Source: Shimia thalassica
GTDB taxonomy: Bacteria; Pseudomonadota; Alphaproteobacteria; Rhodobacterales; Rhodobacteraceae
Length of the DNA stretch: 64,000 bases
NCBI RefSeq assembly: GCF_001458215.1
Contig: NZ_CYTW01000004.1
Coordinates: 310,001 to 374,000, forward strand
Direction: 5' to 3'
Made by a program: the position numbers and the translations under genes. Under the pieces are notes generated by a model, which saw only the letters and a list, made by a program, of their open reading frames with translations, was not told the DNA's origin and did not search any database. Position 1 is the stretch's first letter, and the number at the start of each line of letters is the position of its first letter. Shown here piece by piece: positions 22,571-45,400 of this stretch.

Positions 22571-22924
22571 ATGCGGTATCTGTGGGCACTGTTCGGTCTT
22601 CTTGCTCTTGCACTGGGAACAATTGGAATCGTTGCCCCGCTCTTGCCGACCGTTCCCTTTTTACTTTTGGCCGCGTTTTGCTTTTCTAAATCTTCTGAAC
22701 GGTTGCACAATTGGCTGCTCTCGCACCCAACTTTTGGACCCCCGATCGCCGATTGGAATGAGAGAGGCGCAATCAGCCTTGCCGCGAAACGGCTTGCCAC
22801 CATTTCGATTGTTGTCGTCTTTGGAATTTCAATCGCAATTGGGTTGCGCACAACCCTTTTGCTTATTCAGGCCGCAACGCTCAGCTGTGTTTTACTGTTT
22901 ATATGGACGCGACCTAATTCGTAG
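22571..22924 (+). CDS. ybaN: DUF454/YbaN-family small membrane protein
   Basis: The 117-residue inner-membrane protein of unknown role has hydrophobic segments at about 4-20, 24-38 and 72-108. The family motif is visible: LGTIGIVAPLLPTVPFLLLA, then CFSKSSERLHNWLLSHPTFGP. It follows hemW by three bases, so it is probably co-transcribed. Its last 11 bases overlap the 3' end of the convergent parB gene. Confidence 0.9.
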   Translation: MRYLWALFGLLALALGTIGIVAPLLPTVPFLLLAAFCFSKSSERLHNWLLSHPTFGPPIADWNERGAISLAAKRLATISIVVVFGISIAIGLRTTLLLIQAATLSCVLLFIWTRPNS

Positions 22925-23813
22925 ACGTCAGGATCCGACAAATTTCATCCAGTTGATCCAAAGAGGCGTATTTGATTGTTACATGGCCAGTTTCGCCGCC
23001 AAGCTTGTGATCAACCAATACCTTCATACCAAGATTTGCGGACAAATCTCCTTCGAGCGCAATTGTATCTGCGTCTTTCTTGGCCTTTTCGACGGGTCTT
23101 TGCGGCTTATCACCAGCCGTCTTGTTTGCCGCTGACTTGGCCAAAGCCTCGGTTTGACGCACGGAAAGGCCGCCTTTGACAACCTTTTTGGCCAAAAGAG
23201 AGGGATCTTCGGACGTAATTAGCGCCCGCGCATGACCTGTGGACAGATCGCCGGCTTTCAAAAGAACAAGAACATCGTCAGGAAGCTGCAAAAGACGCAT
23301 CAAATTCGCGATGTGGCTTCGGCTTTTACCCAATGCCTCGGAAAGTTTTTCCTGAGTGTGCCCAAATCGGTCCATCAACGCACGATACCCAGCCGCTTCC
23401 TCAACCGGGTTAAGGTCAGCGCGCTGAATGTTTTCAATAATGGCAATCTCGAGAACTTCTGTGTCGTCGTATTCGCGCACAACAACAGGAAGTTGATGAA
23501 GCTGAGCCATCTGTGACGCACGCCAACGGCGTTCACCTGCAACGATTTCAAACGTCCCGCCCTCTTGCTCGCGCACGATAAGAGGCTGAATCACACCCTT
23601 TTCGCGAATTGATGCGGCGAGTTCTTCAAGCTGGTCTTCCGTAAAATCCCGTCTTGGCTGATCGGGGTTCGGAACAACCTTTTCGATCGGAACAAACATA
23701 TCCGCCCGGCGCGAGGTCTCTGCATCAGGTGGCGTCTGGTCTTCTGTAACATCTGCCATCAGCGCGGAAAGGCCACGGCCCAAACCGCGTGTTTTAGTCT
23801 TTTTCGAAGCCAT
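22914..23813 (-). CDS. parB: Chromosome partitioning protein ParB
   Basis: CTP-dependent DNA clamp that loads at parS and spreads along origin DNA. The 299-residue protein shows the ParB/Srx domain (VVPNPDQPRRDF, IREKGVIQPLIVR, and the CTP-site GERRWRA), the helix-turn-helix (LGKSRSHIANLMRLL) and a C-terminal dimerisation tail. ATG 23813 is chosen for GGGGAGG six bases upstream; an in-frame codon at 23837 would add eight residues. It is downstream of parA, and two parS sites lie 1.4 and 3.3 kb away. Confidence 0.97.
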   Translation of the reverse strand: MASKKTKTRGLGRGLSALMADVTEDQTPPDAETSRRADMFVPIEKVVPNPDQPRRDFTEDQLEELAASIREKGVIQPLIVREQEGGTFEIVAGERRWRASQMAQLHQLPVVVREYDDTEVLEIAIIENIQRADLNPVEEAAGYRALMDRFGHTQEKLSEALGKSRSHIANLMRLLQLPDDVLVLLKAGDLSTGHARALITSEDPSLLAKKVVKGGLSVRQTEALAKSAANKTAGDKPQRPVEKAKKDADTIALEGDLSANLGMKVLVDHKLGGETGHVTIKYASLDQLDEICRILTSTN

Positions 23814-23826
23814 TTTCGCCTCCCCT

Positions 23827-24636
23827 TTATGCGGCAAGTGTCAGCTGTTTGTTCAAAAGCTCTTTTGCAAGGGCGCGATACGCCTCAGCACCTTTTGAAC
23901 TTGGATCATACTGTAGAACCGGTTGCGCAAAAGATGGGGCTTCGGAAACACGCACGTTGCGCGGAATTTTCGTTTCGAAAACCAGTTCCCCAAGATTATC
24001 ACGCGCGTCCTGCTCTACTTGTTGAGAAAGATTGTTCCGGGCATCAAACATCGTCAGAACAATGCCTTCGATACGCAGCTTGGTATTCGCGGTTTGCCGA
24101 ACTTCCCGCACCGTCAACATCAGCTGGGACAGGCCCTCAAGTGCAAAAAATTCACTTTGCAGCGGAATCAGCACAGAATGAGCGGCAATCATCGCGTTTA
24201 CCGTCAAAAGGTTAAGCGATGGCGGACAATCAATCAGGACATAATCCCAGTCATATGTGTCCATCGCGGGCTGTCGCAGCGCATCGTGCAGAAGAAAGCT
24301 TCGTTTTTCGTTGGAAATAAGCTCAATATCGGCAGAACTCAGATCAACGGTCGCCGGAATGATCGACATTCCGTCCAGTTCTGTAGGCTGAATGACGTCC
24401 GCCAGTTCAGCATCTTCCACCAAGAGATCGTATGTCGTAAATTCCCGATCCTGACTTTCGATCCCGAGGCCGGTCGAGGCGTTCCCCTGGGGGTCAAGAT
24501 CGACGACCAGAACACGATTTCCAGTTTCCTGAAGCGCGGCGGCAAGATTGATGGTGGTCGTTGTTTTGCCAACGCCCCCCTTTTGGTTTGCAACCGCAAT
24601 GATCTTTGGGCCTTGTGGGCGGGTGGGATCAGACAC
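23827..24636 (-). CDS. parA: Chromosome partitioning ATPase ParA
   Basis: Walker-type ATPase that moves ParB-parS complexes to the new cell pole. At 269 residues it has the deviant Walker A KGGVGKTTT, the LVVDLDPQGNASTGLG segment and VLIDCPPSLNLLTVNA. GTG 24636 is chosen because GGAG lies nine bases upstream; TTG 24651 is another in-frame codon. Its start overlaps the end of rsmG by eight bases. It forms an operon with rsmG upstream and parB downstream. Confidence 0.97.
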   Translation of the reverse strand: MSDPTRPQGPKIIAVANQKGGVGKTTTTINLAAALQETGNRVLVVDLDPQGNASTGLGIESQDREFTTYDLLVEDAELADVIQPTELDGMSIIPATVDLSSADIELISNEKRSFLLHDALRQPAMDTYDWDYVLIDCPPSLNLLTVNAMIAAHSVLIPLQSEFFALEGLSQLMLTVREVRQTANTKLRIEGIVLTMFDARNNLSQQVEQDARDNLGELVFETKIPRNVRVSEAPSFAQPVLQYDPSSKGAEAYRALAKELLNKQLTLAA

Positions 24637-25252
24637 GTCTAATTTCTCCAACCTTAAGAATAACGGCTTCGGGTTCAGTCTTACTTTTAATTGCGTCGTA
24701 TTTGAAAGACCACGATTCCTGCGCCAGCTTCACTTCTTTTTGCCAAGTGGCACCTTTTGGGAACAATGCAATGCCGCGTTCGCCTAAATGCCGTTCGGAG
24801 AATTCAAAAAGAAGCGATAGATCCGCAAGTGCTCTTGCTGACAAAACATCTGCTCTTTGGGGGTCTGCCTTCTCAATACGTTCGGACAAAACGGTGGCCG
24901 GAACCTCGGTTTCGCGCAAGACGGTCCTAAGAAACGCGCATTTTCTCTGATCGCTTTCGATCAGGGTGATTTTCCTAGAATTTGCGTTTTCGGCCGACAG
25001 TATGGCGATCACAAGCCCGGGAAATCCACCGCCACTGCCGATATCTACCCAATTTTGCGCATTTTCTGGTGGCAACTCATAGATTTGAGCGGAATCCAGA
25101 ATGTGCCTCATCCAAAGATCTTTGAGGGATGACTTTGAAACCAGATTGATTTTTGGATTCCACTTTTCAAGCAGGCTCGACAACAACAAAAGCTTTTCGG
25201 ATGTTTCACGTGAAACATTCAGTTGTGCCAAAACCTCTTTAGCGCCATTCAT
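24629..25252 (-). CDS. rsmG: 16S rRNA (guanine527-N7) methyltransferase RsmG (GidB)
   Basis: SAM-dependent methylation of G527 in 16S rRNA. In 207 residues it has LLEKWNPKINLVS, the HILDSAQI segment, the SAM-binding VDIGSGGGFPGLV and LIESDQRKCAFL. The ATG at 25252 shares one base with the mnmG stop (TGATG). The codons for residues VSRET form a perfect parS palindrome at 25202-25217, so the early coding sequence serves two roles. Confidence 0.96.
   Translation of the reverse strand: MNGAKEVLAQLNVSRETSEKLLLLSSLLEKWNPKINLVSKSSLKDLWMRHILDSAQIYELPPENAQNWVDIGSGGGFPGLVIAILSAENANSRKITLIESDQRKCAFLRTVLRETEVPATVLSERIEKADPQRADVLSARALADLSLLFEFSERHLGERGIALFPKGATWQKEVKLAQESWSFKYDAIKSKTEPEAVILKVGEIRRV
25202..25217. 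promoter_or_regulatory. parS site 1 (inside rsmG)
   Basis: A perfect 16-base palindrome TGTTTCACGTGAAACA, the consensus ParB-binding centromere site, about 5 kb from the putative origin. It lies in the first 51 bases of the rsmG coding sequence. Confidence 0.93.
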
Positions 25253-27114
25253 CACGCAGATTTACTCCTTCTGATCTGCTTTAACTTAGCAAGGATCAAA
25301 GTTAATGCTGCTGGTGTCATCCCGTCAATGCGTCCCGCCTGCCCCAGGTTTCCCGGACGAACATGCTCAAGTTTGGATTTGAGTTCGTTGGAAAGACCGT
25401 CAACACCGCCAAAATCAAAATCGGATGGAATAGACTGATTCTCATCGCGCTTCATTGCCTCAACGTCGCGCTGTTGACGTTGGATGTAGTTGGCGTAAAG
25501 GGAATCTCTTTCCAACTGTTGACGAACCTCTTCATCAACAGACGAAAACCTGTCGTCCAACGGAGTGATATCTGAATAAGATACCTCAGGAAACGCGAGA
25601 ACCTGATAGGCCGTTCGTTTGCTGCCATCCCGGTTGACGGAAATTCCTGCTTCGCTCAATTGCTTTGGCGTAAAGGGTGTCTCTTCAAGTAGAGACTTTG
25701 CAGAAGCAAGACGTTCCTTTTTGTTTTCAAAGACTTCTTTCCTCTGCTCACTCACAAGACCAAGATCAATACCAACTGGCGTGAGGCGTTGATCTGCGTT
25801 GTCCGCCCTCAAAGAGAGACGAAACTCAGCGCGAGATGTAAACATACGATAAGGTTCAGTGACCCCTCGTGTCACAAGGTCATCGACCATTACCCCAATA
25901 TAGCTGTCAGATCGGCTAAACGTTTTTGGATCTTTCCCTTGAGCTGACAATGCTGCATTCAAACCAGCCACCAAACCCTGAGCCGCCGCTTCTTCATAGC
26001 CGGTCGTCCCGTTGATCTGTCCCGCGAGGTATAGGCCAGGCACATTCTTTACTTGCAATGTACCGTCAAGAGACCGCGGATCGACATAGTCATATTCAAT
26101 CGCATATCCAGGTTGAAGAATTTCGCAGTTCTCCAAGCCGCGCATCGAATGGACATAATTATCCTGCACATCCACGGGTAAAGAGGTGGATATTCCATTG
26201 GGATACACGGTATCGTCATCAAGTCCCTCGGGTTCAAGGAAAACCTGATGGGAGGTTTTGTCGGCAAATCTAACAATCTTGTCTTCGATCGAAGGGCAAT
26301 ACCTGGGACCTACGCCTTCAATGTGACCACCGTACATAGCGGATCTATCAAGATTTTCCCGAATGATATCATGGGTTTGCTCATTCGTGTGGGTGATCCC
26401 ACAAGACACCTGTTTGGCGAATGGAGCTTTATTCAGGAATGAGAAAACAACCGGCTCATCATCTCCGGGTTGGCTCTCAAGGATATCCCAATTGATCGTC
26501 TTTCCATTCAAACGGGGTGGCGTTCCGGTCTTCAAGCGCCCCAAGGGAAGGTCGAAACCGTCAATCCTCTCGGCAAGTTTGACGGACGCGTTATCCCCCA
26601 TACGGCCACCCGAACGGGACACATCCCCGATGTGAATGACACCTCGCAGAAACGTACCGGTCGTTAAAACAACCGCATGCGCGGACACTTCGGACCCATC
26701 GGCGAGGATAATCCCGCGAACAGCATCGCCATCCATCAGGAAGTCGGTGGCTTCACCCTCAACAATAGTGAGGTTTTCAATAGCAAGGATTTCAGCCAAC
26801 ATGCTCTCGCGATAGATCTTTCTATCCGCTTGGGCGCGCGGGCCCTGCACTGCTGGCCCTTTTCTGCGATTAAGAAGCCGAAATTGAATACCAGCTTGAT
26901 CGGCCACGCGTCCCATGAGGCCGTCCAAGGCGTCAATTTCGCGAACCAAGTGCCCCTTTCCAAGCCCACCAATTGCAGGATTGCACGACATTACGCCGAT
27001 TCCAGAGGTTTTCAGTGTGATCAGCGCGGTTTTGGCGCCCATTCTTGCTGATCCGGCTGCAGCGTCTGCACCGGCATGTCCGCCTCCAACAACGATGACA
27101 TCAAAATGTTTCAC
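25252..27114 (-). CDS. mnmG: tRNA U34 carboxymethylaminomethyl-modifying enzyme MnmG (GidA)
   Basis: FAD-binding partner of MnmE that installs the cmnm5 group on U34 of several tRNAs. The 620-residue protein has the dinucleotide-binding [31 protein letters not shown] and [14 protein letters not shown], and ends in the basic C-terminal domain. GTG 27114 is chosen because AAGGAG lies eight bases upstream; GTG 27123 is in frame but nearly touches that site. A parS palindrome fills the space between ribosome site and start. It lies 12 bases after mnmE. Confidence 0.95.
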
Positions 27115-27122
27115 GTGAAACA
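27107..27122. promoter_or_regulatory. parS site 2 (at the mnmG start)
   Basis: Second perfect copy of TGTTTCACGTGAAACA. It lies between the AAGGAG ribosome site and the first codons of mnmG, about 3.3 kb from the putative origin. Confidence 0.93.
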
Positions 27123-28435: not shown

Positions 28436-29707
28436 TTAGGTGTTCATCGAGTCGAAAAATTCTGTATTCGATTTGGTTTGCTTCAACTTGGAGATCAAGA
28501 ATTCGATACCGTCTGTGGTACCCATCGGATTAAGGATGCGGCGCAGAACGAAGGTCTTCGCAAGATCAACCTTATCGACAAGCAGCTCTTCTTTCCGCGT
28601 ACCGGATTTAAGGATATCGATCGCTGGGAAGACGCGTTTGTCAGCAACTTTACGATCCAGAACGATCTCAGAGTTACCCGTACCTTTGAACTCTTCGAAG
28701 ATCACTTCGTCCATACGGCTTCCTGTATCGATCAATGCAGTCGAGATGATTGTCAGCGAGCCACCCTCTTCGATGTTCCGGGCCGCACCAAAGAAACGCT
28801 TGGGACGTTGCAGGGCATTTGCATCAACACCACCTGTCAGAACTTTACCTGACGAAGGCACGACTGTGTTAAACGCTCTACCAAGTCTTGTGATCGAATC
28901 GAGAAGAATAACAACATCTCGTTTATGCTCGACCAGACGCTTGGCTTTTTCGATCACCATTTCCGAAACAGCAACGTGACGCGACGCAGGTTCATCAAAC
29001 GTAGACGAGATGACTTCGCCTTTTACAGACCTTTGCATGTCTGTGACTTCTTCAGGACGTTCATCAATCAGCAAGACGATCAAATAACACTCTGGGTGGT
29101 TGGCTTCGATGCTGTGTGCGATGTTTTGCAACAGTACGGTTTTACCAGTCCGCGGCGGCGCAACGATCAAAGACCGCTGTCCTTTACCGATTGGCGCGAC
29201 AAGATCAATGATACGAGCAGAACGGTCCTTGATGGTGGGATCTTCGATCTCCATCTTCAGGCGCTCGTCAGGATACAGTGGCGTCAGGTTGTCAAACGCA
29301 ACTTTGTGTTTCGCTTTTTCGGGTGTTTCAAAGTTGATCAGGTGAACAGCCGTGAAAGCAAAATAGCGCTCATTCTCTTCTGGCGCCTTGATCACACCAT
29401 TTACGGTATCACCCGTCCGCAGGCTGTATTTCCGGATCATTTCCGGGCTGACATAGATATCGTCCGGACCCGGAAGATAGTTTGCCTCGGGGGATCGCAA
29501 AAACCCGAATCCATCCTGAAGCACTTCGAGTACACCGTCGCCGGAAATTTCCCATCCATCATCCGCGCGTTCGCGCAGAATCTGGAACATCATTTCGCCT
29601 TTTCGCATCGTCGAGGCGTTTTCGATTTCGAGCTCTTCGGCCATAGACAAAAGGTCTTTTGGGCTTTTTGCCTTGAGTTCGGCAAGAGCAAGTTTTTCTG
29701 TGGTCAT
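28436..29707 (-). CDS. rho: Transcription termination factor Rho
   Basis: Hexameric RNA helicase that ends transcription at Rho-dependent sites. In 423 residues it shows the N-terminal Rho_N helix domain, the RNA-binding cold-shock-like domain ([23 protein letters not shown]), Walker [10 protein letters not shown], and [16 protein letters not shown] 29707 gives the usual MTTEKL-type start; an in-frame codon at 29728 is less likely. The roughly 157 bases upstream could hold its autoregulatory leader, but nothing specific was seen. Confidence 0.96.
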
Positions 29708-29864
29708 TGGAAACATCCCAAACAGCAAGCCATAAAAACGGCTGTATGCTGCATCTCTATCATCAATTTTATGTCGGAAGACACTCGACCCGGACGGGCC
29801 AGTTGCGGGTTACATAAGGACAGAGAGCCGCAGAGTCAATTTTTCTTAGCAAATTTGAGCCAAT

Positions 29865-30314
29865 TCAGAATTTCACGACGACCGAGACAACGATGATGAC
29901 CATCAAGATTGTCGGGACTTCGTTCATCATTCGATATTGCCGGCCTGTCAGAGTGTTTTCACCACGACCGAATTGTTTTCTTTTGATCATTAGCCAATGA
30001 TCAAAGGCCGTCATTGCGATGACGCCGAATGCTTTCGTATAGGGCCATACAGACGTCCAGTCGACAATACCCGGGGTGAACACCAGTGCGAGCCCTGCGA
30101 GCCACGTTGCGATGCTTGCTGGGGCCATAATGTAGCGCTGAAGCTTGTATTCCATAATGCGGAGCGTTTCATCAAGCTGATCCCCGTTCTGGGCCCTCTC
30201 CGCATGATACACGAAGAGACGAGGCAGATAGAAAATACCTGCCATCCACGAAATCACAGCCATGATGTGAAATGCGAGAACGTATTCGTAAATATCCGAG
30301 AGGAAGTCAGTCAT
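29865..30314 (-). CDS. hemJ: Protoporphyrinogen IX oxidase HemJ
   Basis: Integral-membrane enzyme of late haem synthesis. The 149 residues form four hydrophobic helices with the conserved AFHIMAVISWMAGIFYLPRLFVYH (one His in the first helix is expected to bind haem) and MIKRKQFGRGEN, RMMNEVPTILMV. It is the gene next to the putative origin on the left and is transcribed away from it. Confidence 0.95.
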   Translation of the reverse strand: MTDFLSDIYEYVLAFHIMAVISWMAGIFYLPRLFVYHAERAQNGDQLDETLRIMEYKLQRYIMAPASIATWLAGLALVFTPGIVDWTSVWPYTKAFGVIAMTAFDHWLMIKRKQFGRGENTLTGRQYRMMNEVPTILMVIIVVSVVVKF

Positions 30315-30726
30315 GTGAATTTTCCGAACCGAGGTGAGCTCTTTACTAATAATAATAAGAAGAAAGAAAAAGGATGATGTTTTTGATGTGTCGTCTTTTT
30401 CTTGGGATTATTTACTTTTCAAAAGGGTTTTCCACATTTGGATTATTTGAATTTTTTTGGAAAGATGAAGAGGGACACATTTTGAAAAATTAAACGTGTT
30501 CAAATATTTAGCTATGAAACCTACCTAAGGTCAGCTTGTGGAAAACTTTGTGAGCAAAATTGTACGACATAATTACACACAGGTTTAAAGTTATCCCCAT
30601 CCACCGTGGAGAAAACACGTGGAACACCGTGAAACGGGGTGTGTTTCCACAGCTTGCAAAGTCGGTTCGAATTTTCCAAAGATAATCCCCAAGCTTGTTG
30701 CACCGAAACTCCACGGATTTATCCAC
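30315..30726. other. Probable chromosomal replication origin (oriC)
   Basis: A 412-base stretch without a gene between hemJ and maf. DnaA-box-like 9-mers: TTTTCCACA (30428-30436), its reverse TGTGGAAAA (30537-30545), TTATCCCCA (30591-30599), GTTTCCACA (30643-30651) and the perfect TTATCCACA (30719-30727). The part at about 30440-30520 is strongly AT-rich and could be the unwinding element. The neighbours (parAB, rsmG, mnmG, mnmE, rho, hemJ on one side; maf, aroE, coaE, dnaQ on the other) are the usual alphaproteobacterial origin neighbours. Genes on both sides diverge from it. Confidence 0.82.
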
Positions 30727-30727
30727 A
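30719..30727 (+). promoter_or_regulatory. Perfect DnaA box overlapping the maf start
   Basis: TTATCCACA matches the consensus at all nine positions. Its last base is the A of the maf ATG, so DnaA binding could also affect maf expression. Confidence 0.75.
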
Positions 30728-31326
30728 TGCCCCCTCAGATTATTCTAGCTTCCGGTTCTGACATCCGCGCAAAACTGTTGCGCGACGCTGGCGTGGACTT
30801 TGATGTTATTACGGCCAAAGTTGATGAAGAAATGATTAAACTCTCTCTGGAAGCAGAGGAGGCCCCACCCCGGGATATTGCGGATTTCCTGGCCGAAACC
30901 AAAGCGGGCAAGGTCGCTGCCAAACATCCAGACAAAATGGTGATCGGGTGTGATCAGGTTTTGGATTTCAAAGGGCGCATTTTTTCCAAGCCAAAGACCA
31001 TCGAAGAAGCCCGTGAACAGCTTCTCGCGCTTCGCAATGAACGTCACATGCTGCTGTCAGCCGCTGTGATCTTTTTCGAAGGAAAGCCAATTTGGCGCCA
31101 CGTTGGAACGGTTCGTCTTATGATGCGGGACTTTTCGGACGATTATCTTGATGACTATTTACAGCGAAACTGGGACAGCATTCGCTGGTCCGTTGGTGGT
31201 TACAAGTTGGAAGAAGAGGGTATTCGTCTTTTTCACCGCGTCGACGGTGACTATTTCAATGTGCTTGGATTACCATTACTCGAAATCTTGAATTATCTGA
31301 TGGCGCGTGGAGATCTGAGTTCATGA
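30727..31326 (+). CDS. maf: Maf-family nucleotide pyrophosphatase
   Basis: House-cleaning hydrolase of modified or non-canonical nucleoside triphosphates. At 199 residues it begins with IILASGSDIRAKLLRDAGV, which replaces the usual S-x-S-x-RR by SGSDIRAK, and has GCDQVLDFKGRIFSKP and the C-terminal DGDYFNVLGLP. The ATG at 30727 is chosen because the protein begins as the family does; a longer frame opens at 30619 but would run through the origin. It is first in the maf-aroE-coaE-dnaQ operon, whose genes overlap by 4-8 bases. Confidence 0.93.
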   Translation: MPPQIILASGSDIRAKLLRDAGVDFDVITAKVDEEMIKLSLEAEEAPPRDIADFLAETKAGKVAAKHPDKMVIGCDQVLDFKGRIFSKPKTIEEAREQLLALRNERHMLLSAAVIFFEGKPIWRHVGTVRLMMRDFSDDYLDDYLQRNWDSIRWSVGGYKLEEEGIRLFHRVDGDYFNVLGLPLLEILNYLMARGDLSS

Positions 31327-42453: not shown

Positions 42454-45400
42454 TCAAGAGAGCGCAGCAGCGGTTAACGCTTTTGTCACAACTTCGTTGG
42501 GCAGCGTCATAAGCTGGGCCGTTTTCGTCCACAGGATCGCCGCGCGGATCTCTCTGTCCGGATAGATTTGTCCCAGACCCTCAACATATGCTCCCATCTG
42601 GCGCAAAACACCTTCTGGCGTCTGTTCTGGCGTGTTGGGAACCGTCGCGTTTGTTTTAAAATCGACGACCAAAACATAGTCCGGCGTCACAATAAGCCTG
42701 TCGATAATGCCGTGGATGCGACTAGAGCCAAGGTTTGCCGTGATCGGAACTTCGGCCAGCGTGTCGTCTTCAAACAAAAAGGACAGTTCCGGAGTGCTGA
42801 GAACGTCTGCGGCTTCGATCAAAAGCGCAGAAAGCTGAACCTCGTTCGGGCCTTCGGGTCCCTTGGGCAATAAATCAGCAGCTGCCTGCGGCCAGCTTTG
42901 CCTGTCGTGTTCAGGAAGATGTTCCAGCAACAAATGAACCCAACTGCCCCATTGCATCGCAGCCTCTTCGTCGAGACCGGCCTCGCCGGGCAGTGCTTTG
43001 GCGCCCCCCAGATCAGAGGGTGAAAGCGTTGATACAACCGGATCAACCGGCGCGACAGGGGTGCGAAATTGCGCGGCGAGATCGGGAAGCGCGACTTCTG
43101 TTTCTTCGTTTTCTTCAACAATTGGGCCAGACCAGTCGCCATGGCTGTACCGAAGCCCCTGCCCGCCGGGAAAATCAAAAGGCTCTGCTCCTGCGGTTTC
43201 AAGTCCGCGCTGGATGGCTTCGTACCAGGTTTGTCCGTCTTTCCCGAGGTCTCCTGCGGCTACGGTGATCAACCACTTTTCCGCACGCGTCATGGCCACA
43301 TACAACAACCTTTGACGTTCTGCTCGCAGAAGGTCGGCTTTGCGCTCGCGTTCTTCTTTCATTTCGGCGGGGGCCTTATCGGCGGGCACCGACCACAAAG
43401 GAATGCCTTCCCTGCCGATGATTTGCCCATCGTTGCGAATGAGACGTTTTCCTGTGTCTGGCAAGATCACAATCGGCGCCTCAAGACCTTTGGATCCATG
43501 CACGGTCATGACCCTGATCCTGTTTCCGGCACTGTCCATCTGACGCTTGATCTCAAGGTCGTCGGTTTCCATCCAGACAAGGAACCCGGTAAGGCTGGGT
43601 ACTGCGCTGCGCTCATAGGCAAGCGCCTGTGACAGCAGCGCGTTTATCCCATCTTCGGCCTCAACCCCCAGCCGTGCCAGAAGTGTATGGCGCCCTTTGT
43701 GGCGAGTCAGGATCCGCTCAATCAGATCGTAAGGCCGCAAGAAGTCTGCTTGTGCTTGAAGGTCATGCAATATCTCGAGCGTTTGTGGATAAGCTTCCGC
43801 CTGTTCGCGTAGTGCAGCCCAAAGAAGCTTGCCACCCCTGCCCTGTGCCAGATCATAAAGCTGTTTTTCGGACCATCCAAACAAAGGGCTGCGCAGCGCA
43901 ACAGCCAAAGACAGATCGTCTTCCGGGGTCGCCAGAAAAGAAAGAAGTGCTCCGAGGTCTCGCACGGCCAGTTCTGCACCAACCTTGAGCCGGTCAGCAC
44001 CGGCAATTGGCAGATCATGAGCCTTGCAGGCGCGGATGATTTCGTGAAACAGATTGCTGCGCCGTTGAACGAGGATCAGAAAATCGCCTGCTTGCACGGG
44101 GCGCTGATTGTATAATCCCGTTTCGCCCTTTTCAGCTGGAATAGTCTCTTTCTCATCGATCAGACGTTTGATTTCGGCGGCAATCCTGTCTGCCAGAACA
44201 ACCGAGTGATGCGTTTCGCCAAGACGGTCGACCGGCTTGTACCATTCTTCTTTGTCCGGTTTCGGGCTTTCATCGACAACCGGCCACAGGTCGGCACGAC
44301 CGGGCATATCATCATGAAAGGCGCGGTGTTTCATGTCTTGTGGAAATCCCGCCTGTTCCTGTTGTTCAAACACCAGATCAACCAAACGAAGAACTGCGGC
44401 AGATGAGCGGAAGGAATACTCGAGCTCGAGCGAAAGCAGAGGTTTTTCCGTGGGTTCCAAACGGTCATCAAAATCGGAGCGCATGCGATCAAATTCGGCA
44501 GGGTCTGCGCCCTGAAAGCTGTAAATCGATTGCTTCTTGTCCCCGACAACGAAAATCGTGCGCTCGACATCACTGCGTGCGCCTGACCCGCTGGTGAATT
44601 CTTGCGCCAAACGCTCGATGACCTGCCACTGCTCGGGGCTGGTGTCTTGAGCTTCGTCCACAAGGATATGGTCAATCCCGCCGTCCAGTCGAAACAGAAC
44701 CCATTCGGCGACCATGGGATCACTGAGCAGGGCGCGGGCCCTCAGGATCAGGTCGTCGAAATCAAGCCATCCCAAAAGCTGTTTACGGGTTTCGTATTTC
44801 TCGAGAAATTGCACACCAAAGGCGGCCAGAGCCTGACTGCGCTGGGCCATATCATAGGCAAGCCGGGCCTTGCGTGTGTCTTCAACACGCAACATCAACG
44901 GTTCTAGCCGCGCCATCAAATCCGGATGGTTTTTCTGGACGCCTTTGGTTGGAAAAGACCCTATCTTGGCGGAAAACGGTGATTTTGCAGCGCCCCCCGT
45001 CAGAAACACGCCCTCTAGAACCGGCAAGGCAGACCAGTCAATCGTGCCCAGTTGGGCAAGCTTTTCCGCATTCTTGTTGTCGGTTGCGCCACCTGTTCGC
45101 AGTGCGACGATCAGTTCGGCAATCAATTCGGTCTCGCCACCGCAAAACGCCCGGCTGGTCAGCGTTTCGACATTGATCGGGCTATCGAAGCCAAGCACGG
45201 CATAAACGCCAGTTTCATCCGGAACGCTGTAGAAAAGATGGCGGTTCCGCACGATCTCGTTTGTGAGATCTTCCAGAGATTCACCGGTAAAATGCCGAGC
45301 CAAATCCGAAATAACAGAAGACCCTTCGTCTGACGCCATGGACGAAACAATTTCTTCCCGCAGCAAAGCCGCAGCCCGATCTTCCATTTCGGAAAACATC

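Follow-up and report, generated by a model that had tools for sequence, protein, structure and literature searches.

A predicted chromosomal origin of replication between hemJ and maf in a Shimia-like member of the Rhodobacteraceae

Described alphaproteobacterial origins and the flanks of the hemJ-maf locus

The chromosomal origin of Caulobacter crescentus, Cori, lies between hemE and COG1806 (PMC1914354) and, according to the available parts of two papers (PMC1914354 and PMC4468827), contains an AT-rich part and several mostly weak DnaA boxes and has parS within 8 kb. Within the Rhodobacteraceae, oriCs have been assigned by Ori-Finder in 101 strains (PMC6699656) with DnaA boxes, a GC-disparity minimum, a local GC minimum and nearness to parAB as criteria, features that the locus described here shares, the skew minimum at the level of the window; the parts of that paper examined name neither hemJ and maf flanks nor an unwinding module. 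Further, no description of a hemJ-maf origin or of the conserved motif reported below was found in the titles and abstract openings of the literature searched, which is no proof of its absence in print.

The DNA analysed here, which we call the window, is a stretch of 64 kb, positions 310001-374000 of contig 4 of a 4.35-Mb draft genome in 12 contigs, and the organism is inferred to be a Shimia-like member of the Rhodobacteraceae. The segment at 30315-30727 (413 bp, GC 0.373) can with high probability be taken as the oriC of the chromosome; it is of the ordinary alphaproteobacterial kind but has derived flanks. An earlier note on this DNA had described genes diverging to both sides of the segment, and this is the case, with hemJ on the minus strand and maf on the plus strand. 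Family matches place rho, mnmE, mnmG, rsmG, parA and parB, in this order, leftward beyond hemJ, and aroE, coaE and a dnaQ-like exonuclease gene rightward beyond maf. A scan of the window against Rfam gave no match at gathering thresholds. The coordinates of the features are collected in Table 1.

The earlier note had also held that known alphaproteobacterial origins share hemJ and maf as neighbours. As far as the available parts of the sources go, this does not apply to the immediate flanks, for which hemE and COG1806 are described in Caulobacter and Rickettsia, but it does apply farther out in two loci of the class, L181 and L182, where the gene order is hemJ-hemH-hemE, a gap of ~650 bp, COG1806 and maf (by Pfam families in L181). 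In the genome studied here, the hemE and COG1806 flanks of a Caulobacter-type Cori are absent from the origin, as are its CtrA sites. The single URO-D (hemE) match in the genome lies on contig 3, and COG1806 (Kinase-PPPase) gave no match in the genome by either family or protein search; hence, it is hemJ and maf that border the origin. Because L181 and L182 keep the complete series from hemJ to maf with the gap between hemE and COG1806, the hemJ-maf origin seems to be this locus with its former flanks gone, and the origin appears to have kept its place through the loss or relocation of the genes that stood between hemJ and maf. Compared with C. crescentus Cori by description rather than by alignment, the locus is alike in its corresponding syntenic position, its AT-rich part, its several mostly weak DnaA boxes and its parS within 8 kb, but differs in having hemJ and maf as immediate flanks and no CtrA consensus.

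For comparison, 77 Rhodobacteraceae segments including the window were gathered, and removal of 5 duplicates left 72 distinct segments; because the relatives were all retrieved through similarity to Maf, they are a chosen set. Six loci in which no hemJ was found near maf (L039-L044) and 18 loci with distant Maf relatives, in which no hemJ was found (L185-L202), stayed unaligned. The left flank is hemJ in 60 of the 72 segments and rho in 12 (L019-L021, L151, L157, L161, L164-L166, L170, L178 and L180), and all 72 could be aligned despite the 12 with rho on the left. Stability and slot counts refer to 71 segments because one, L172 (364 bp), is too short. A second set was built from COG1806, which was matched in 67 of 115 genomes; 30 loci were taken, of which 27 have hemE upstream within the 1.5-kb flank. 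These 27, which were used for the triplet analysis, and L181 and L182, which were not aligned among the Rhodobacteraceae segments, make up the 29 class origins.

Table 1. Features of the predicted origin and its surroundings (positions in the window)
Feature	Position	Strand	Basis
parB (22914-23837) and parA (23827-24651)	22914..24651	-	family match
parS, perfect palindrome, inside rsmG (GidB)	25202..25217		motif search
parS, perfect palindrome, in first codons of mnmG (GIDA)	27107..27122		motif search
rho	28436..29713	-	family match
hemJ (UPF0093, 5.5e-56)	29865..30314	-	family match
Predicted oriC, hemJ-maf intergenic segment	30315..30727		DnaA-box cluster, nearby skew minimum, alignable in 72 segments
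Proposed DNA unwinding element, A-rich on + strand	30339..30389		least stable 50 bp of the 64-kb window
Origin motif with the highest conservation (AAAGGATGATG plus two bases), perhaps a degenerate DnaA-trio array	30369..30381	+	alignment of relatives
Degenerate DnaA box (TTGGGATTA) at the slot closest to the unwinding element, where the majority reads TGTGGATTA	30402..30410	-	alignment of relatives
DnaA box, one mismatch (TTTTCCACA)	30428..30436	+	slot filled at ≤1 mismatch in 23/71 relatives
Second AT-rich stretch, sequence poorly conserved (core of the earlier note)	30440..30520		stability, alignment, composition
DnaA box, one mismatch (TTTTCCACA)	30537..30545	-	slot filled at ≤1 mismatch in 44/71, opposite strand 0/71
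DnaA box, one mismatch (TTATCCCCA)	30591..30599	+	slot filled at ≤1 mismatch in 10/71
Exact DnaA box, last base part of maf start codon	30719..30727	+	motif match
maf (Maf, 5.6e-43)	30727..31326	+	family match

DnaA boxes, partition sites and GC skew

The segment contains one exact match to TTATCCACA, three matches with one mismatch and six with two mismatches, the last at 30573, 30643, 30672 and 30683 on the plus strand and at 30437 and 30605 on the minus strand. Thus, the one perfect box of the earlier note was found, but its count of four boxes with one or two mismatches was too low. The clustering of the boxes goes beyond chance: 2000 dinucleotide-keeping shuffles of the segment held on average 0.0075 exact boxes, 0.14 at ≤1 mismatch and 1.7 at ≤2 mismatches, with at least one exact box in 0.75% of the shuffles and with four boxes (≤1 mismatch) or ten (≤2 mismatches) in none. 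Similarly, none of 3139 segments of 413 bp taken elsewhere in the window, in steps of 20, reached four or ten boxes (maxima of 1 and 5). In the window as a whole, the motif occurs 15 times at ≤1 mismatch compared with 8.65 expected (5 of 100 shuffles reach 15). This enrichment is only mild, and the excess is that of the cluster at 30315-30727. The spaced inverted box pair is found at one place in the 4.35-Mb genome. A lone exact DnaA box lies away from the cluster, on the minus strand at 43784-43792.

The boxes recur among the relatives at set distances from maf (tolerance of 4 bases). Slot -191 is filled at ≤1 mismatch in 44 of 71 segments and is the sole slot filled in more than half, followed by slots -298 (23), -324 (21), -253 (10) and -136 (10); at none of these slots did any of the 71 segments have an opposite-strand box at ≤1 mismatch. 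Within the last 40 bases before maf, TTATCCAC at ≤1 mismatch is present in 69 of 72 segments (shuffled mean 1.9, maximum 6 of 72), and a same-strand box within the last 40 bases before COG1806 is present in 8 of 29 class origins, the latter being a count without a null. Because the exact box overlaps the maf start codon by its last base, DnaA may also influence maf expression. No consensus site for CtrA (TTAA-N7-TTAA) or IHF and no GANTC motif was found in 30315-30727; the CtrA consensus occurs in 6 of the 72 Rhodobacteraceae segments and in 3 of the 29 class origins, and GANTC in 55 of the 72.

Both parS and parAB are near the segment. A genome-wide search for parS at ≤1 mismatch returned just two sites, both perfect, 5.1 and 3.2 kb from the segment; both (25202-25217 and 27107-27122) are located within coding sequence. 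The cumulative GC-skew curve of the window reaches its lowest value, -427, at 30261 and drops again, to -407, near 54 kb. Skew was followed in the window and in sampled 10-kb stretches of its contig, which belongs to a 12-contig draft and extends only 38 kb to the right of the locus. Eight of nine samples between 1 and 330 kb were negative, and that at 360-370 kb was positive; the sample immediately left of the locus, 320-330 kb, was slightly positive (+0.005). Five relatives were sampled sparsely. In G032, a single contig from the same class, the skew turns between the sample at 3.553 Mb and the contig start, with maf at 3.607 Mb. In G017, of the same genus, the turn lies between 258 and 300 kb and maf at 238 kb, a displacement of ~20-60 kb, and in G037, of the same class and with weak skews, the turn lies between 2.75 and 2.95 Mb and maf at 3.007 Mb, a displacement of ~55-255 kb. 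The samples from G015 and G023 were noisy and agree only roughly with the locus. The earlier note had named a distant skew minimum as a finding that would speak against an origin here; over the window, the contig samples and the sparse samples of relatives, and at the level of a draft assembly, the skew does not refute it.

We considered the possibility that the segment is instead a DnaA-regulated divergent promoter of hemJ and maf and that the true origin lies elsewhere, for example near dnaA. The divergence of the two genes and the overlap of the exact box with the maf start would suit such a promoter. However, only one DnaA box at ≤1 mismatch is present in the 3.5 kb around dnaA, which is on contig 6 and not on the origin contig; the exact conserved motif described below is kept in 5 of 12 rho-flanked segments without hemJ; and the parS sites and the skew minimum of the window are found at the hemJ-maf locus. 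We therefore regard a promoter of this kind as an extremely improbable explanation. Overall, the box cluster, the local skew minimum, parS and parAB nearby, a box pair unique in the genome and a segment that is conserved even where its neighbours differ support the identification of 30315-30727 as the origin, as the earlier note had proposed. As a separate observation, dnaA itself has one exact DnaA box upstream (L014 2766, contig 6), which may serve autoregulation.

The candidate unwinding element and the conserved hemJ-side motif

Stability was lowest in the 64 kb at 30342-30372 for 30 bp, at 30339-30389 for 50 bp and at 30344-30424 for 80 bp; an AT-rich unstable stretch thus lies beside the boxes. 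The earlier note had placed an AT-rich core at 30440-30520, and this stretch is indeed rich in AT (0.728, compared with 0.459 for the window); as a candidate opening site, however, it is surpassed by 30339-30389, which is less stable and has an AT content of 0.765. An origin that begins to unwind in the core and not at 30339-30389 is, in our estimate, unlikely. It would agree with the overlap of the core with the second least stable 80 bp (30436-30516), with next-ranked 30-bp and 50-bp stretches in or near the core (for 50 bp, 30407-30457 and 30479-30529) and with those relatives in which the least stable 40 bp fall in the second quarter of the segment (17 of 71 Rhodobacteraceae segments and 5 of 29 class origins). 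In all the others (54 of 71 and 24 of 29), the least stable 40 bp fall in the first, hem-side quarter, which also holds the conservation peak. By halves, the hem-side half contains the least stable stretch in 71 of 72 and 29 of 29, a count that cannot separate the two candidates because the core is also in that half. Of the two stretches, 30339-30389 is thus a more probable unwinding region than 30440-30520.

The conservation peak abuts this proposed unwinding element. In a thinned set of 52 segments, the best 12-mer is 30370-30381, with a mean top-base frequency of 0.85 compared with at most 0.77 in 1000 column permutations, and the wider pattern around the motif occurs once in the genome. 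Exact GGATGATG is present in 31 of 72 segments (in one, L183, elsewhere in the segment) and on the opposite strand in none, and GATGATG is present on the plus strand in 52 of 72 and on the opposite strand in 1. Because 26 of 60 hemJ-flanked segments contain exact GGATGATG, and in 25 of these it is separated from the start of hemJ by 52-67 bases, the conserved AAGGATGATG stretch could be part of a hemJ leader, acting in promoter or translation control, and not of the origin. Yet in 5 of the 12 rho-flanked segments the exact motif is still 349-367 bases from maf but 160-221 bases from rho, and this constancy of the distance to maf speaks against a hemJ leader; in addition, a G/T-rich triplet module is found at this end in hemE-COG1806 origins. 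We judge the leader distinctly unlikely and favour a motif that belongs to the origin.

Compared with the basal unwinding system described for Bacillus subtilis and others (available parts of PMC8287927), the locus is alike in polarity, with a triplet-like stretch separating the AT-rich part from the first TGTGGAT box. In contrast to that system, the window has no trio array above shuffles, and the motif reads 5'-GATGATG-3' and not 3'-GAT-5'. A formal search for DnaA boxes with at least three DnaA-trios within 16 bp (60 shuffles for each segment, with our own simplified scoring) gave a best array with P of 0.33 in the window, which is not significant, and the window was therefore not assigned to this system; P fell below 0.05 in 15 of the 72 segments and in 2 of the 29 class origins. 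In L161, a TAGTAGTAG run is 0 bp from a box with 1 mismatch, and in L165 such a run is 3 bp from a box with 2 mismatches. The AAGGATGATG of the window was also considered as an array of canonical trios and rejected on its orientation.

The authors of PMC8287927 suspect, in the parts of the paper available, that deviant trios exist. Triplet arrays were scored with seven patterns in two sets, two halves and two strands, chosen post hoc, and are to be read as a lead only. On the plus strand of the hemE half of the 27 class origins, T-N-G scores a mean of 3.33 compared with 2.33 in shuffled sequence and reaches at least 5 of 6 in 6 of 27 origins compared with 0.2 expected; the other three combinations of half and strand show no excess (2.11/2.10, 2.33/2.26 and 2.00/2.15). 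At the same end, the Rhodobacteraceae have little T-N-G excess (2.40 compared with 2.30), and the window scores only 2 of 6, but G-N-T (3.29 compared with 2.31) and N-A-N (5.54 compared with 4.89) are raised. G-N-T is also raised in the class origins (2.89 compared with 2.41), and N-A-N is raised in their hemE half on the opposite strand (4.93 compared with 4.50), not on the plus strand (4.30 compared with 4.31). These differences between the Rhodobacteraceae and the class count against a single shared motif. It is conceivable, although we lean against it, that a polarised array of deviant DnaA-trios is common to alphaproteobacterial origins and separates the unwinding element from the first box. 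Such an array would be made of T-N-G repeats in hemE-COG1806 origins and recast as GATGATGAT in the Rhodobacteraceae, unlike the canonical 3'-GAT-5'.

Proposed working of the origin and its meaning

We are highly confident that the locus is the chromosomal oriC, and we propose that it works through DnaA on its boxes, opening at 30339-30389 and segregation by ParB, parS and ParA. DnaA, encoded elsewhere, would bind several weak boxes in addition to the spaced ones at 30428, 30537, 30591 and 30719. By analogy with described origins, the DnaA oligomer would grow toward the hemJ side and open the least stable, A-rich stretch at 30339-30389, where the helicase would be loaded and from which forks would depart both ways. 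ParB on the nearby parS sites would, together with ParA, separate the new origins. DnaA binding, the direction of the oligomer, the site of opening, segregation and the activity of the origin are all predicted here from sequence and analogy.

Overall, the analysis adds modest new detail to an ordinary object, namely its derived flanks and the better placement of its candidate unwinding element. Origin calling by hemE-COG1806 flanks alone would overlook this origin. For a Shimia-like marine bacterium, the locus provides a predicted origin that is well supported at the level of sequence and a case of an origin that appears to have remained fixed while its neighbours were lost or moved, and the conserved hemJ-side module may offer a precise target for the question of how alphaproteobacterial origins open.
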